Below, one piece after another: positions 15,868 to 49,004 of a stretch of DNA of 64,000 bases. Within the stretch, counting starts at the first letter, position 1. Every line of letters begins with the position of its first letter. Below the pieces are notes generated by a model, which saw only the letters and a list, made by a program, of their open reading frames with translations, was not told where the DNA came from and searched no databases. The stretch comes from Bacteroidota bacterium (GTDB lineage Bacteria; Bacteroidota; Bacteroidia; Chitinophagales; Saprospiraceae). The position numbers were made by a program, and so were the translations under genes. The stretch lies in the NCBI GenBank assembly GCA_029557915.1, contig JAKQHS010000061.1, positions 1-64,000 of the forward strand, written 5' to 3'.

Positions 15868-16148
15868 AGGTCCTTCTGATGGTTTCTCGCAAAGGCGCGA
15901 AGGCGCAAAGATAAGAGGTAGTTTTTAGTGCATAGGAGGGAAGAAATTAGGGGATGTTTCTCGCAAAGACTCGAAGGCGCAAAGTTTGATGGTGTTTCTC
16001 GCAAAGACGCGAAGGCGCAAAGTTTGATCGTGTTTCTCGCAAAGACTCGAAGGCGCAAAGTTTGATGTGTTTTTCGCAAAGGCGCGAAGGCGCAAAGTTT
16101 GATGGTGTTTCTCGCAAAGGCGCGAAGACGCAAAGTTTGAAAGCTGAT
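15868..16148. repeat. Direct-repeat tract, CGCAAAGGCGCGAAGGCGCAAAG family
   Basis: About seven imperfect copies of a roughly 35-base unit built on 'TTTCTCGCAAAG-CGCGAAGGCGCAAAG-TTTGATG' occupy this gap. Each copy itself contains internal 8-9 base near-repeats (GCAAAGGC/GCGAAGGC). Open frames here translate the repeat (RLRAFARN-type strings) and are not genes. The tract abuts the start of fcl on one side and the 3' end of the GxxExxY gene on the other. Confidence 0.85.
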
Positions 16149-16526
16149 TTATAGATTGTTAACGATTCTGGTAATGCCATCTTTAATCAAGGCTTCATTA
16201 AAGTTGACCAGTAATCCCAATTTCATACCGGTCAGTTTCAGATAGGTAAGCATTTGTCTTTTATGTACTGGTAAAACGGTTTCGATTGATTTAATTTCAA
16301 TGATCAGCTTATCATCAACAATCAAATCTGCCCTGAAGCCAATATCCATTTTTTTATCTTTCCAGCGTACCGGGATTCCCTTTTGTCTTTCAACCTTAAA
16401 TCCCATTTGGATCAATTCATAATACAATACTTCTTCATAAACAGATTCAAATAGCCCTGCTCCTAGCTGAGTGTGGATTTGATAACAAAGGTCCACGACA
16501 ATGGTGGCTAATTCGTTTTCAGTCAT
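16149..16526 (-). CDS. GxxExxY protein (PD-(D/E)XK nuclease-like fold)
   Basis: 125 residues, full length for the family. The name-giving motif is G24-L-F-E27-S-V-Y30. A PD-(D/E)XK-like core is present as D67 in RADLIVDD and E77-x-K79 in IIEIKS. Function is unknown; the fold resembles restriction-type nucleases. The gene lies between gmd and fcl and is flanked on both sides by CGCAAAG-type repeats, in the same orientation on the left and in mixed orientation on the right. That context, and its unrelatedness to sugar metabolism, suggest an inserted cassette. Confidence 0.85.
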   Translation of the reverse strand: MTENELATIVVDLCYQIHTQLGAGLFESVYEEVLYYELIQMGFKVERQKGIPVRWKDKKMDIGFRADLIVDDKLIIEIKSIETVLPVHKRQMLTYLKLTGMKLGLLVNFNEALIKDGITRIVNNL

Positions 16527-16825
16527 TTTTCTCGCTAAGAATTTTGTTTCTCGCTAAGGCACGGAGAATTTATTTCTCGCTAAGACGCTAAGGCGCTAAG
16601 AATTTTGAATTTATTTCTCGCAAAGACGCTAAGGCGCTAAGAATTTTGTTTCTCGATAAGGCGCTAAGGCGCACAGATTTTTTATCCTTTTGGGTACAAA
16701 GGCGCTAAACATTTTAATCAAACCTCTTTGCGTCTTTGCGCCTTTGCGACTTTGCGAGCAAACTAATCCATACACCTTTGCGAGCAATCTAATTCAAGCG
16801 CCTCTGCGCTTTTGCGAGAAACCTT
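16527..16825. repeat. Repeat tract right of GxxExxY gene, direct then inverted copies
   Basis: The first part (about 16530-16700) carries copies of 'TTTCTCGCTAAGACGCTAAGGCGCTAAG', the same family as the tract at 15868 but with CTAAG in place of CAAAG. The second part (about 16725-16825) carries inverted copies ('CTTTGCGTCTTTGCGCCTTTGCG', 'TTTTGCGAGAAAC'). Direct and inverted arms could pair into a long hairpin. No gene is seen. Confidence 0.82.
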
Positions 16826-18807: not shown

Positions 18808-18992
18808 GAAGGGGTAAAGATAGGGAGATGGAAGTTAGAAGTTAGGAGCTCGAAGTTGGGGCGATGGCTCCTGGCTGCACAGCAGAATTCTTATTCAGCG
18901 AGACACCCTTATTACTGTGAAACATCAAAATGACCAAGAAACCACCAAGCCAAAACGCCCTAACTCCTAACTCCTAACTCCGAGCTCCTTCT
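18808..18992. repeat. GAAGTTAG/GGAGCT repeat-bounded spacer
   Basis: The gap begins with GAAGTTAGAAGTTAGGAGCTCGAAGTT and ends with CTAACTCCTAACTCCTAACTCCGAGCTCC, so its ends are inverted relative to each other. Between them lies a core starting TTGGGGCGATGGCTCCTGG (18856) and ending AAGCCAAAACGCCC, related to the cores in the array at 19740-20551. It looks like a single hairpin unit of the same family. No gene is seen. Confidence 0.7.
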
Positions 18993-19733
18993 CTAGAGAT
19001 ACTGCTTCAACTTACTCAGAGGTTTTTTCCACAGCGTCAACCACTCCGGCTTCAATCCATTCATTGTCCAGGCAGCACGGTCCTGCCGGTTAGCCAGCCA
19101 GCGGGCCTTGAAAGAGCGGTTGCTTGCGCCCCCCGTACGCATGGCCACCAGGGTTTCGGGCAGGTAGTCGCAAGGGAGGCTATGGAGATAAAGCATTCGG
19201 AGCATCAATTCATAATCTGCAGAAATGCTCAACTCCTTCCGGTACAAACCATATTTCAAATAACAGTCCTTTCTCAAAAAGAAAGCCGGGTGCGGCGGCA
19301 TCCAACCTTGTAAAAAAAGTTCTTTTTGAAAGGGGCCGGATTTCCAGGTGCGGATGATTTTGGATGGGTCTTTCCTGCTCACATAGATGAGGTCTCCATA
19401 AACGGAGTCCACTTTTCCCTCCCTAAAGGATTTCATCACGCGGGAAATAACACCCGGCTGGAGATAGAAGTCGTCGGCATTCAGGACAGCGATCACTTCG
19501 CCCGCCGCTCTGTTTATTCCTTTATTGATTGCGTCATAGATGCCTTCATCCGCTCCGGAAAGGATATCTGCCAGGTGAGGAAAGGATCTTGCAATTTCGA
19601 GGGTCCTGTCCATCGATCCACCATCCAGGAGTAGATGTTCAATTTCTGGATAATCCTGGGTTCGGACGCTTTCAAGGCAGTCCCTGATGACCGTTTCATT
19701 GTTCAGGGAGGGAGTGATGATGGAAATGGTCAC
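18993..19733 (-). CDS. WcaE-like family 2 glycosyltransferase
   Basis: GT2 of 246 residues starting at GTG 19733 (VTISIITPSLN). The frame runs on to 19805, but those codons translate the GGAAGCT repeats (PASSFQLP) and precede the conserved GT-A start, so I exclude them. Motifs: LLLDGGSMDRT, ADEGIYDAINKGINRAAGE (the GIYDA-NKGI signature of colanic-acid WcaE-type enzymes) and VLNADDFY, the metal-binding site. It likely adds a residue in the fucose-containing module together with Gmd, Fcl and ManC. The donor is not identified. Confidence 0.83.
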   Translation of the reverse strand: MTISIITPSLNNETVIRDCLESVRTQDYPEIEHLLLDGGSMDRTLEIARSFPHLADILSGADEGIYDAINKGINRAAGEVIAVLNADDFYLQPGVISRVMKSFREGKVDSVYGDLIYVSRKDPSKIIRTWKSGPFQKELFLQGWMPPHPAFFLRKDCYLKYGLYRKELSISADYELMLRMLYLHSLPCDYLPETLVAMRTGGASNRSFKARWLANRQDRAAWTMNGLKPEWLTLWKKPLSKLKQYL

Positions 19734-19739
19734 TGTGAA

Positions 19740-20551
19740 ACGGAAGTTATAAATTGGAAGCTGGAAGCTCGAAGCTGGTAGCTGGTAGCTGGGGAGGAAC
19801 CACAAAACCCCCGGAAATGCCAGGCCAAAACGCCCTAGCTTCTAACTTGGAAGCTGGAAGTTGGGGCGATGGAGCCTGGCCATCCTGTTGTTTTCTTATT
19901 CATTTTTCGATCTTCTGTCACTTTTTTAGTGAAGCGGGTAACCTGGAAGCTGGAAGCTGGAAGCTCGAAGATGGTAGATGGTAGCTGGTAGCTGGTAGCT
20001 GGGGAGGAACCACAAAACCCCAGGAACTGCCAGGCTAAAACGCCCTATCTTCTAACTTCGAGCCTCTAACCTGGAAGCTGGAGGCTAGAAGTTGGAAGCT
20101 AGAAGCTGGAAGCTGGGGAGGGTCTACTAAACCCCAGGAACTGCCAGACCAAAACGCCCCATCTTCTAACTCCGGGCTTCTACCTGGAAGCTGGAAGTTG
20201 GAAGCTGGAAGCTGGGGAGGGTCTACTAAACCCCCGGAAATGCCAGACCAAAACGCCCTAGCTTCTAACTCCGGGCTTCTAACCTGGAAGCTGGAAGTTG
20301 GGAGCTGGGGAGGGTCTACTAAATCACCAGAAATGCCAGGCCAAAACGCCCTAGCTTCTAACTCCGAGCTTCTAACCTGGAAGCTGGAAGCTAGAAGTTG
20401 GAAGCTGGGGAGGGTCTACTAAACCCCCCGGAACTGCCAGGCCAAAACGCCCTAGCTTCTAACTCCGGGCTTCTAACCTGGAAGCTGGGGAGGGTCTACT
20501 AAATCCCCGGAAATGCCAGACCAAAACGCCCTAGCTTCTAACTTCCAGCTG
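19740..20551. repeat. Array of seven hairpin-like repeat units (GGAAGCT arms, conserved core)
   Basis: Seven units share a core of about 45-60 bases beginning GGGGAGG at 19791, 20001, 20115, 20214, 20307, 20407 and 20487. The core continues with (T/C)CTACTAAA or CCACAAAA, CCCCCGGAAATGCCAG and CCAAAACGCCC. Each core is preceded by one to six GGAAGCT/GGAAGTT heptamers and followed by AGCTTCTAACTCCGGGCTTCTAA, which is roughly their reverse complement. Spacing is about 80-114 bases except for the first pair (210), where a different core starting TTGGGGCGATGG intervenes at 19861. Open frames here are repeat translations. There are no unique spacers, so it is not CRISPR. Confidence 0.85.
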
Positions 20552-22279
20552 CTAACTTCTGGTTACCACACAATTCTCCATCACCAGCATATCCATCCTC
20601 GTCCGTAAAAAACAATCCAGCGCCTCACCGGGGGTGTTTACGATGGGTTCGTTTTCATTAAAAGAGGTATTTAGCAGGATGGGCAGTCCCGTTTTTTGCC
20701 GAAATCGTTCGATTAGCTTGTAATAGCGCGGAGCGGTGTTTTTATCCACGGTCTGGAGCCTCCCGCTGCCGTCCACGTGGGTGACTGCGGGGATAAGCGC
20801 TCTTTTATCTTCTCTTATGGGATATACCTTTTCCATGAAAGGCACCTCTCCGTTCCGGGTAAAATATTCCGAGGTGTATTCCTTGAGGATGGACGGTGCA
20901 AAAGGGCGGAAGCTTTCCCTCCTTTTGATTTTGAGGTTGAGCAATTCCTTGGCATGGGGATTGCGCGGGTCGGCCAGGATGGATCGGCCACCCAGGGCGC
21001 GGGGGCCGAATTCGGCCCTTCCCGTAAACCAACCCACCACTCCGGGCTCGATCAATTTATCCGTGACGATATCGTACAACTCTTCATCCTCGTATTTCCG
21101 GAATTCCACCGACTTGCTTTTGAGCAATTGTTCGATATCCGCGTTCGAAAAATGTGCACCGTTGTATGCATGGCGCACCGGCTCTGTTCTTTTGTGGCCA
21201 AGGATATGGTGCCAGGCATACATGGCGCTGCCCATGGAAATGCCGGCATCGTGCCCCGCGGAAGGGATATAGACTTGCCTGAATCCTGTCGCATCCGTCA
21301 ATTTACCATTGGCCACGGAATTCTGAGCCACCCCTCCGGCCAGGCAGAGATTGTCCAAATTTGTCTTTTTTCTCAGGTCTGAGGCGATGTGGAAGATAAG
21401 TTCTTCCGTCACCCGCTGTACCGATGCCGCCAGGTCCTTATGATAAGCGCTCAGCTCTTCTTCTTTTTGCCTGGGAGGGCCGAACAGCTTTACAAATTTG
21501 CCGGAGTAAAGATCGCCTACCCGGGGCACATGATTTTCATACCTGAAGCCGGCTTGTGTTGGATGTACAAAATAAGCCTGGTCCCAGTCAAACAGCCCGT
21601 TGGGAAGAAACCGCAATAATTTTTTCACCTGGTCTGCATACCTCGGCTGTCCATAGGAGGCGAGGCCCATCACCTTATACTCATCCCCGTAATTCGGAAA
21701 GCCCAGGAATTGGGTAAAAGCCGTATAGAACAGCCCGCAGGACACCGGAAAGTCCACACTGTCCAGGACCTGCAGTTTGTAATCTTTCCCAATAGCCCTC
21801 ATGGTGGTAGTAAAATCACCGGATCCGTCCAAAGACAGGACGGCAGCCTGTTCAAAAGGGGAGGGATAAAAAGCAGAGGCCAGATGGCTGCGGTGGTGTT
21901 CAATCAGCATCAGGCGCTTTTTTATTGAAAGCAGGTCGAGGCTGCCATCCACCCCTGCAAGGGCCTGTTTCAGATCAAAAATTACCGACTGGTTTTTTAC
22001 CCGATCAGATAAGTTCAGCAAGAGGGCGGGCTGCCGCACCAGGAGCAGGATTTTTTTCCAAAGTTTGGCTTTAGGATTCCTCCCTATGGTGATAAAATCC
22101 AAGTCCTTTAATTGCTGGCCCTTGTCCCTGAGGCAAAAGCGGATGGATTCCATGGGAAAGCCGGCCCAGTGTTTAATCCGGGTGAAACGTTCTTCTTCGG
22201 CGGCTGCCTGCAGACGGCCATCGATGAAAAGGGCTGCGGAAGAATCGGCATGATACGCGTTGAGGCCAAGAATAGTCAT
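20552..22279 (-). CDS. Carbamoyltransferase (NodU/CmcH family)
   Basis: 575 residues, normal family length. The N-terminal ASKHA-type domain shows GLNAYHADSSAAL at 5-17, IEHHRSHLASAF (126-137) and the nucleotide loop DGSGD (151-155). The C-terminal domain has GRAEFGPRALGGRSILADPR and RESFRPFAPSI, the signature of O-carbamoyl transfer from carbamoyl phosphate via carbamoyl-adenylate. It probably carbamoylates a sugar hydroxyl of the polysaccharide. ATG at 22279. The last codons (AGA-AGT-TAG) run into the hairpin array, and eight GTCAGAG heptamers lie immediately upstream of the start. Confidence 0.9.
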   Translation of the reverse strand: MTILGLNAYHADSSAALFIDGRLQAAAEEERFTRIKHWAGFPMESIRFCLRDKGQQLKDLDFITIGRNPKAKLWKKILLLVRQPALLLNLSDRVKNQSVIFDLKQALAGVDGSLDLLSIKKRLMLIEHHRSHLASAFYPSPFEQAAVLSLDGSGDFTTTMRAIGKDYKLQVLDSVDFPVSCGLFYTAFTQFLGFPNYGDEYKVMGLASYGQPRYADQVKKLLRFLPNGLFDWDQAYFVHPTQAGFRYENHVPRVGDLYSGKFVKLFGPPRQKEEELSAYHKDLAASVQRVTEELIFHIASDLRKKTNLDNLCLAGGVAQNSVANGKLTDATGFRQVYIPSAGHDAGISMGSAMYAWHHILGHKRTEPVRHAYNGAHFSNADIEQLLKSKSVEFRKYEDEELYDIVTDKLIEPGVVGWFTGRAEFGPRALGGRSILADPRNPHAKELLNLKIKRRESFRPFAPSILKEYTSEYFTRNGEVPFMEKVYPIREDKRALIPAVTHVDGSGRLQTVDKNTAPRYYKLIERFRQKTGLPILLNTSFNENEPIVNTPGEALDCFLRTRMDMLVMENCVVTRS

Positions 22280-22283
22280 CGAA

Positions 22284-22339
22284 GTCAGAGGTCAGAGGTC
22301 AGAGGTCAGAGGTCAGAGGTCAGAGGTCAGAGGTCAGAG
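22284..22339. repeat. (GTCAGAG)8 heptamer tandem repeat
   Basis: Eight perfect head-to-tail GTCAGAG heptamers lie between the carbamoyltransferase start and the WcaI-like gene upstream. They occupy the carbamoyltransferase leader region, so a change in copy number would alter spacing before its start codon but not any reading frame. Confidence 0.97.
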
Positions 22340-47139: not shown

Positions 47140-47225
47140 GTATAATTATCAGATATGTTGTTTCATGATATGCTGCCGGGAGCCATTGCCCCAGCTTCCA
47201 GCTCCTATCTTCCAGCTTCTAACTC
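47140..47225. repeat. Inverted copy of GGAAGCT-type repeat unit
   Basis: The gap between the Gmd-like gene and asnB carries CCCCAGCTTCCAGC, CTTCCAGCTTCTAACTCC and a core GCCGGGAGCCATTGCCCC (about 47174-47191). This is the reverse complement of the TTGGGGCGATGGCTCCTGG core at 18856. The tract continues into the last codons of asnB. Confidence 0.75.
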
Positions 47226-49004
47226 CTAACTCCTAGCTTCCAACTTCCAGCTTCCTGCCATTTTGATCGCCCAATACCGGGCCCAGCTGAGCCTGCCCTG
47301 CTTAAACGCCTGAAAGTATTTTTCCTCCTTAGGGGTCTGGGGCCTGACCTGCTCACTTGTTTTCATCCATAATTCAAAAGGAAGGGTGAATCCCTGTTTG
47401 GGCCGGTTCCAAATGGCTTCGGGCAGAATATCTTTACAGGATTCAATGAGCAGAAATTTAGGCTGTCCGGGTTTGAACCGGATATCGGAGGGCATTGTAT
47501 TGACCAGTTCTACAAATTCCTTGTCGAGAAAAGGCACCCGGATCTCCAGGCTATGCCACATGCTCATATAATCTGCATCTTTCAGCAATTGGTTGTGCAT
47601 ATAGGCATGGTATTCGAGCCAACTGGCTTTTTCCAACCGGTCCTCCCCGTTCCAGGAGGCCGTCTGCATGCTGTCGAGCTGGTGTCGGACCTCTGTTTCA
47701 TCCGCTTCCAGGATGTCCGCTATCCGGTCTATGGTATGTAATCCCCGGTAAAACAAATATTCTCCGGTGCTGTTTTTTAAAGTCGCAAATTTTATTTTAC
47801 GGTAACGGTCCGAAGTCCCGAGCGTTGCTAATTCCAGAACAGGGCCAGGACATTTTACCAGCCATTGCCACCAACTGGAATTCTTCACGGAAGGATAACC
47901 TCCAAACAATTCATCAGCACCGATTCCTGAGAGCACCGATTTGAGCCCGGCCCGGTGCGCATAGCCGGATATCATATACACATTGATCGCGTCGGTACTC
48001 GGCTGATCCATGGCTCGCAGCGCATCGGGCAGTTGCAGATCGAAATCCGCGGAGGTTACGACATATTCATGATGCCTGGAGCCGGCCATTTGAACTACCT
48101 GGTCCTGGTATTTTTTTTCGGAATATCCGGATTCGTTAAAGTGGACGGAGAGGGTATGCAAATGCTCCTTTACCCAGGGTTTTGCCAGGAGGGTCAACAG
48201 GCTTGAATCAATGCCTCCACTAAGGAAGATGCCCAATGGGGCGTCTGAGATCAGGTGCCTTCGAATCGCCTGTTCCAGGGTCGAGCGGACCCTTAAAGCC
48301 GCTTCACCGGGTGCAACCTTTTCTTTTATATCATGACCGGGAATAAAGCTATGCAGCTTAATCCTGGACTGGCCGATTTCAAACTCCAGTATGGAACCTT
48401 TAGCCAGGGATTGAACCTGTTGCAGTGTCGTGCGGGGGGCAGGGATATGGCCGAAGGCCAGGAAAAAGATTTTCCAGTTTTTGTCTTCAGGCCAGTCCGG
48501 CTGCAGGGCCCGGAATGCCTTGATCTCAGAAGCGAAATACAGGTTCCCGCCCCGGACAGCGTAGTACAGGGGCTTAATGCCGGCATGATCCCTGGCCAGG
48601 ATCATCGAATTTTTCCTTTTATCCCAGATCGCGAGGGCAAACATGCCGTTCAGCCTGCTGAAACCCATGTTACCCCATTGAAGGTATGCCTGCAGAATGA
48701 CTTCCGTGTCCGATCGCGTTTTAAATTTATGTCCAAGCGCGGTGAGTTCATCCCGCAACGCTACATAGTTGTACACCTCGCCGTTATAAATCAAATGGAC
48801 TTGTCCACCTTCATCCGACATGGGCTGGTGGCCCCCGGGGCCCAGGTCAATAATGGACAGCCGGTTGTGCCCAAGGTAAACCCGGGAATCTTCATCCACG
48901 AAGGTTCCCTGGTCATCAGGGCCGCCCCGGTACATACTGTCCCGCATCCGGATCAGATCGGTAAGCTTGAGACCGGGGTCAATAAAGCCAGCCAGGCGGC
49001 ACAT
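47226..49004 (-). CDS. asnB: Asparagine synthase-like amidotransferase
   Basis: 592 residues. N-terminal class II glutaminase with Cys2 exposed after Met removal (MCRLAGFID), NGEVYNY and RSDTEVILQAY. C-terminal synthetase with FLSGGIDSSLLTLLA (PP-loop) and ADELFGGYPS. In glycan loci such proteins often amidate uronic acids (WbpS-type) rather than making asparagine; here the UDP-diNAc-uronate pathway provides a plausible substrate. The last residues (GSWKLEARS) are read from the intergenic repeat, so the original stop has been replaced. ATG at 49004. Confidence 0.88.
   Translation of the reverse strand: MCRLAGFIDPGLKLTDLIRMRDSMYRGGPDDQGTFVDEDSRVYLGHNRLSIIDLGPGGHQPMSDEGGQVHLIYNGEVYNYVALRDELTALGHKFKTRSDTEVILQAYLQWGNMGFSRLNGMFALAIWDKRKNSMILARDHAGIKPLYYAVRGGNLYFASEIKAFRALQPDWPEDKNWKIFFLAFGHIPAPRTTLQQVQSLAKGSILEFEIGQSRIKLHSFIPGHDIKEKVAPGEAALRVRSTLEQAIRRHLISDAPLGIFLSGGIDSSLLTLLAKPWVKEHLHTLSVHFNESGYSEKKYQDQVVQMAGSRHHEYVVTSADFDLQLPDALRAMDQPSTDAINVYMISGYAHRAGLKSVLSGIGADELFGGYPSVKNSSWWQWLVKCPGPVLELATLGTSDRYRKIKFATLKNSTGEYLFYRGLHTIDRIADILEADETEVRHQLDSMQTASWNGEDRLEKASWLEYHAYMHNQLLKDADYMSMWHSLEIRVPFLDKEFVELVNTMPSDIRFKPGQPKFLLIESCKDILPEAIWNRPKQGFTLPFELWMKTSEQVRPQTPKEEKYFQAFKQGRLSWARYWAIKMAGSWKLEARS

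Follow-up and report, generated by a model that had tools for sequence, protein, structure and literature searches.

Genome G000 of a Bacteroidota bacterium (5.04 Mb, 209 contigs) harbors a palindromic, hairpin-forming repeat, seven copies of which form an array between a carbamoyltransferase gene and a family 2 glycosyltransferase gene on contig C162. Probably, this repeat is a lineage-specific, non-autonomous intergenic element working like REP/BIME elements, with heptamer-microsatellite arms placed around a core. Because of its unit size, its heptamer arms, and the missing link to a transposase, we describe it as working like a REP rather than as a REP element proper. The whole stretch of DNA analyzed, positions 1-64000 of contig C162 (64,000 nt), is referred to as the window; within it, the array occupies 19755-20556 on the + strand. 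The features are as follows.

18822-18992, + strand: single variant element (core C), directly past the glycosyltransferase stop codon
18993-19733, - strand: family 2 glycosyltransferase gene (PF00535), downstream neighbor, GTG start at 19733 assigned by eye
19755-19790, + strand: left heptamer arm of unit 1 (GGAAGCT/GGTAGCT), from sequence and TRF
19791-19835, + strand: core of unit 1 (GGGGAGGAACCAC...CGCCC)
19836-19856, + strand: right arm of unit 1, short, running into heptamers of the left-arm type
19857-19944, + strand: interposed variant segment of ~88 nt between units 1 and 2
20001-20045, + strand: core of unit 2
20115-20159, + strand: core of unit 3
20214-20258, + strand: core of unit 4
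20307-20351, + strand: core of unit 5
20407-20452, + strand: core of unit 6
20487-20531, + strand: core of unit 7
20532-20556, + strand: terminal right arm, containing the carbamoyltransferase stop codon
20552-22279, - strand: carbamoyltransferase gene (PF02543, PF16861), upstream neighbor on the transcribed strand

A preliminary description had reported an array of seven repeat units in the spacer of these two same-strand genes, and both points were confirmed: seven cores were found together with left and partly complementary right heptamers, and the arm pattern (RGAAGYTNGAAGYT) occurred 196 times in the genome as compared to 2 occurrences of a reversed-pattern control. The spacer comprises 818 nt. 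From unit 1 to unit 7 (repeat family D3), core starts are 210, 114, 99, 93, 101, and 79 nt apart; TRF gave a score of 620 over 20088-20488. The units abut, so the array was also correctly described as having no unique spacers, apart from the one insert of ~88 nt between units 1 and 2; on this ground, a CRISPR array was also dismissed by eye. The start of this insert (19857-19880) resembles core C at 18852-18974 (92%, E = 0.012), and the core C element has arms of the array type and the same 3' core end. The array is traversed by two open reading frames, of 126 and 127 codons, but the spacings are generally not multiples of 3; protein coding was rejected, in agreement with the earlier claim. 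Integron attC sites were dismissed by eye, as there are no cassettes, and a tRNA scan of the window returned nothing.

The array is probably transcribed, since it sits between two same-strand genes of conserved order; its orientation is antisense to both. Heptamer-type repeats are present in three spacers of this gene cluster, namely the array, 18822-18992, and the next spacer, where eight perfect GTCAGAG copies were found at 22284-22339. Another repeat family, of the CTCGCAAAGACGCGAAGGCGCAAAG type, was located at 15955-16140, 16566-16648, and 16726-16808 around a small reading frame (16149-16526), and its motif also adjoins heptamers in locus L128.

Each unit of about 80-115 nt contains a core of 45-48 nt closed by a short stem (AGCT-GGG / CCC-TA-CTTC), which continues into the heptamer-microsatellite arms. 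The cores differ in their 5' half: past GGGGAGG, units 1-2 read AACCACAAAA and units 3-7 read GTCTACTAAA. Further variation affects GGAAATGCCAG, which is exact in three of the seven units (1, 4, and 7) and appears as AGAAATGCCAG in unit 5 and as GGAACTGCCAG in units 2, 3, and 6. In the left arms, 75 of 100 heptamers counted were TGGAAGC. The 181 right-arm heptamers, read on the other strand, were mainly TAGAAGC/TAGAAGT (125) and TCGAAGC/TCGAAGT (45). With TGG-type heptamers on the left and TAG/TCG-type heptamers on the right, the arms are not mirror images; the heptamers reported on either side are present, but the right ones are partly complementary to the left ones and not their full complement, as had been stated. 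Their heptamer number does vary, as had been stated, from 0 to 13 in left arms and from 0 to 6 in right arms by simple count. TAG is part of the right-arm heptamers and 7 is not a multiple of 3; therefore, three repeats give a stop codon in every frame. The left-arm heptamer TGGAAGC contains no stop codon.

The preliminary description had made its case depend on further genomic copies of the core, and these exist. A BLAST search with a two-unit query yielded 62 matches in the genome, window included. A profile search of 17 fetched loci and the window gave 68 hits of at least 28 bits, and one more was found at C23 (L127). Subtraction of L040, L033, and a duplicate in L025 and addition of L127 left about 66 units with core A, 7 in the window and about 59 elsewhere, which are distributed over about 13 loci as single units or as arrays of up to 10 or more. 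Five variant or degenerate loci, whose elements reached about 11-28 bits against the core-A profile, carry core B (C9+C50 and C167), core D (C150), an interrupted element (C88), and core C (window 18822-18992); variant cores included, the genome has about 18 loci. The arms recur around cores A, C, and D, which also have a 3' end of the GCCAAAACGCCC type but different 5' halves; in core B, this resemblance is weaker. Core C has no other full-length match in the genome; many core-A units correspond to it over its 3' end, roughly positions 94-121.

In counting loci, C94/C69 and C50/C9 were each taken as one, and C112/C127 were joined by inference. Several arrays run to contig ends. Contig C94 overlaps with C69, and C50 with C9, by exactly 141 nt; a stretch of 140 nt identical to the array of C28 is found in C44, and likewise one in C17. 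These exact overlaps and blocks point to the k-mer limit of the assembly and make copy numbers uncertain; the blocks common to C28, C44, and C17 may partly be chimeric, i.e. assembly effects. The repeat probably explains why several contigs of the assembly break off within arrays.

Distribution of the repeat in other genomes was narrow. No repeat match was found in the one genus-mate examined, G001 (93% complete), and BLAST against 149 other genomes of the family detected no core but a single heptamer match of 27 nt in G116. A search of Bacteroidota genomes with a covariance model had been proposed; model R1 matched genome G000 and none of 395 other family or 394 other phylum genomes under strict filters (positives 1/396 and 1/395, G000 both times). 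In these searches, 13 candidates were scored per genome, the matches listed for G000 itself number only 13, and the family and phylum samples overlap. Of 398 family genomes, 18 contained heptamer triplets; G000 is one of them and had 84 matches, followed by G213, the next richest, with 20. Inverted heptamer pairs 30-60 nt apart were restricted to two of 395 class genomes, namely G000, with 41, and G915, with 2 that overlap at a single locus. Genome G915 belongs to another family, and at this locus (L174) the segment between the inverted arms differs and one arm, by eye, directly follows an apparent gene end. Plasmids and phages did not match the core at E = 1e-5 (102-nt query), nor did viral contigs contain an exact match to one degenerate core pattern. 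No Rfam family reached its gathering score for the array in a scan of the window, in line with the preliminary description, which had called the element undescribed, and among the papers listed in a literature search we noticed none describing this heptamer-armed core, which is no proof of absence.

The spacer in the window was compared with that of 80 relatives fetched via the carbamoyltransferase, whose homologues are mostly from Chitinophagaceae and other Bacteroidota records. The glycosyltransferase gene lies downstream in 59 of them. Judged from the sequence of the two closest relatives, L120 (69% identity) and L041 (68%), which have spacers of 1 and 9 nt, the 818-nt spacer looks like an insertion. 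A spacer of 15 nt or less was present in 23 of the 59 relatives having both genes (in one, L071, by extrapolation). The other 36 have longer spacers, some of 700 nt or more; a long spacer is thus not unique to this genome. At a cut-off of E = 1, the repeat profile had no match in any of the 80 relative loci.

For the most part, the element is found at gene ends. In 15 of the 18 loci, no more than 25 nt separate the edge of the element from a stop codon, or the terminal arm itself contains one; for this count, edges were set by eye and stop-to-stop frames of at least 120 codons were used, some of them perhaps spurious. The exceptions are C28 (49 nt), C17 (ambiguous), and C150 (none), the latter being the one locus with an element between divergent reading frames. 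This closeness is partly forced because gene spacers are short. The flanking genes are unrelated: the 20 neighboring proteins scanned include SHMT, 2-oxoglutarate dehydrogenase, RsmG, aldehyde dehydrogenase, and an M29 peptidase. Relative to the adjacent gene, 7-8 loci are sense, 4-5 antisense, and 4-5 lie between convergent genes. In locus L030 (2931-5114), a glycosyl hydrolase-like gene (PF14871) was observed between two element arrays of the same orientation, a possible site of deletion or duplication by recombination.

Location in 3' UTR positions would also suit a structured regulatory RNA, in which the + strand hairpin would protect the 3' end of the mRNA or cause pausing or attenuation, with the core under selection for this role. 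We consider this unlikely. Two alignments of units were analyzed. Alignment A1 comprised 61 of the 68 hits; dropped were L040 (core D), L033 (the same unit as in L027, contig overlap), two units of L025 (the overlapping duplicate and a truncated one), two of L030 that were degenerate or fused, and one L031 unit with an internal duplication. For alignment A2 (57 rows), 5 near-duplicate rows were removed and L127 was added. RNAalifold predicted an arm stem only, with 10 pairs and a covariation term of -0.13 for A1 and 8 pairs and a term of -0.04 for A2. Covariation in the arms, which had been named beforehand as one criterion, is largely absent: changes on both sides occurred at 2 of 10 pairs (A1) and 1 of 8 pairs (A2), in a single sequence each, and the left-arm variant TGGTAGC of units 1-2 has no counterpart in the right arm. 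A mutual-information scan of the core found no covarying helix, the top paired columns resting on one sequence. A structured RNA family was not supported, double changes being confined to single sequences and no Rfam family reaching its gathering score in the window; nor was the suggestion that the core is kept as RNA, the mixed orientation counting against it as well.

Folding energies favored the + strand in part. For three units, RNA folds gave z-scores of -3.1, -5.5, and -5.6 for the + strand and of -0.7, -4.1, and -3.6 for the - strand as compared to shuffles. The mean z over 60 distinct units was -2.5 (+) versus -1.3 (-), with lower values on the + strand in 48 of 60, and at one arm position 52 of 61 units of A1 form G.U pairs; both observations are in line with a regulatory RNA. 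However, in terms of raw energy the + strand came out ahead for only 32 of the 60 units when folded as RNA and for 34 when folded as DNA, and DNA folds of three units (z -1.9, -4.2, and -3.4 for +; -0.05, -3.4, and -4.6 for -) revealed no constant strand preference. The asymmetric arms and the mixed orientation to transcription, with the window array antisense to both its neighbors, argue against a strand-specific RNA element.

The core had further been said to barely change, which proved too strong. By parsimony, loop columns changed 3.45 times on average and the 16 stem columns 1.5 times, a difference reached in 36 of 20000 permutations; this contrast favors the regulatory RNA but is biased toward this result, because RNAalifold picked the stem columns and thereby favored conserved ones. 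Per-column rates were overdispersed (2.58 versus 0.90-1.00 in a uniform-rate simulation), which also speaks for such an RNA; this heterogeneity could reflect selection on the core itself, be it as DNA or as RNA.

The REP/BIME-like reading agrees with how the units are related to each other. The sequence nearest to a unit came from its own array in 29.8 of 57 cases; after shuffling, this number averaged 5.7 and never exceeded 13.3 (300 shuffles). Units resemble their array-mates above chance, which indicates local tandem amplification; near-identical cores were also found in different arrays. Single units would have been copied to gene ends; slippage and unequal recombination, both at the arms, would then have lengthened and shortened the arrays, and some exchange between arrays may have taken place. 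If the array has an effect, for instance by protecting mRNA 3' ends or attenuating the glycosyltransferase downstream, this would be incidental, and the array is most likely tolerated rather than kept for function.

Another reading is a REP element proper, mobilized in trans by a REP-associated Y1 transposase (RAYT/TnpA-REP) of this genome; three Y1_Tnp genes (L124, L125, and L126) score at or above the Pfam threshold, L126 by a narrow margin. The motifs NHVH and YIHNNP are present in L126; three motifs, including these two, are given in the literature passages available for Bacteroidetes subclass 2.6, whose repeats are described there as atypical structures. Nevertheless, no heptamer clusters were found in stretches of 4-5 kb around the three genes, each of which has other palindromes within 400 nt. 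L126 is flanked on both sides by palindromes of its own, such as GTTTCAGGCGGGGACGCCTGAAAC and GCTTTAGGCGCCCTCGCCTAAAGC (GTTTCAGG..CCTGAAAC, GCTTTAGG..CCTAAAGC), which may represent a REP family in its own right. A RAYT link is therefore not supported, and we regard this explanation as highly improbable. No transposase was among the 20 neighboring proteins of the element that were scanned, with part of the 196 arm matches listed, and target-site duplications are not definable because the heptamer arms blur the element edges.

Two arrays are apparently interrupted by insertions at TA. One of them, in L035 from about 1577 and L031 1-120, has similar ends (24 of 33 identical) and holds the start of a reading frame beginning MAKRTTIEISPEELVELKTV; we assume it to be possibly IS630-like. 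The second was seen in L036.

Alternatively, the element may owe its distribution to heptamer microsatellite dynamics without any mobile step: slippage would generate tracts where genes end, and the core would be moved about as these tracts recombine. One-orientation heptamer tracts without core do exist (L129, L130, L132, and window 47190-47255), and the heptamer triplets in other family genomes, the inverted pair around another segment in G915, and the blocks common to several arrays fit this explanation. Yet slippage alone cannot explain a common core at some 13 unrelated sites; moreover, the inverted arms are of two distinct types and a one-orientation tract is thus no ready acceptor. We rate this account as conceivable but on the unlikely side. 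It does not exclude the REP/BIME-like reading, so the likelihoods given here do not sum to one. Very doubtful, finally, is a novel type of mobile frame, made of heptamer arms and 3' core end, which could carry varied inserts, would be aimed at stop codons, and could replace gene ends harmlessly; its right arm (TAGAAGY) would offer stop codons in every frame and in either reading direction.

REP/BIME elements are among the closest known systems. According to the available parts of PMC3733652, they are located at 3' ends, may supply stop codons, have G.T stem pairs, and are few between divergent genes. Likewise, the element described here is an intergenic palindromic unit with many copies in one genome, is found at gene ends, and rarely lies between divergent genes. 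The same source describes REP elements between unidirectional or convergent genes, singly and in clusters, with some families species-specific, which resembles our case. In contrast, REP elements measure 20-40 nt (PMC3733652, as far as available), whereas the present unit (window spacing 79-114 nt without the gap of 210) has heptamer-tract arms of variable length, a large conserved loop, and tandem arrays of one orientation, and no Y1 transposase gene flanked by it was found. In A1 and A2, no GTAG/CGTC tetranucleotide was seen by eye at the foot of the variable-length arm stem; GGAG and, on the other strand, GTAG occur inside the core.

Heptamers of Xanthomonas and Nostoc also form intergenic tracts nearer the preceding gene and convergent inverted pairs, with opposite-orientation tracts close together in 70 (Xcc) and 75 (Xac) cases; they differ in being GGGAATC of the G-quadruplex type, and the accessible text describes no shared core or unit arrays (PMC4692102). 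The BrickBuilt MITE of Porphyromonas gingivalis (19 copies) is likewise a species-limited, non-autonomous, dispersed intergenic element of Bacteroidota containing variable-number tandem repeats. It is built, in the part of the paper at hand, from a 23-nt direct repeat with a leader and a tail carrying small inverted-repeat ends, (PMC4596501), whereas here the unit is palindromic, its arms are heptamer tracts, and a distinct leader or tail was not recognized. TAACTGA heptamers of Beggiatoaceae, Cyanobacteria, and some Bacteroidetes resemble it in their intergenic tracts and patchy distribution, but are direct repeats, mostly just upstream of start codons in the best-described genome, and no core or hairpin unit is described in the excerpts available (PMC4679880). 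With regard to MITEs, which have terminal inverted repeats matching an autonomous transposon, the arms of our element are inverted but of two heptamer types. Other heptamer repeats are the cyanobacterial STRR repeats and the P6b heptamers of the tRNA-Leu intron.

The element illustrates how a repeat family has multiplied within one lineage, where it fills gene spacers at stop codons without a recognized transposase, and how a core and heptamer microsatellites can join to form a palindromic unit. The mobilizing step, if found, would add a route for the spread of REP-like elements.
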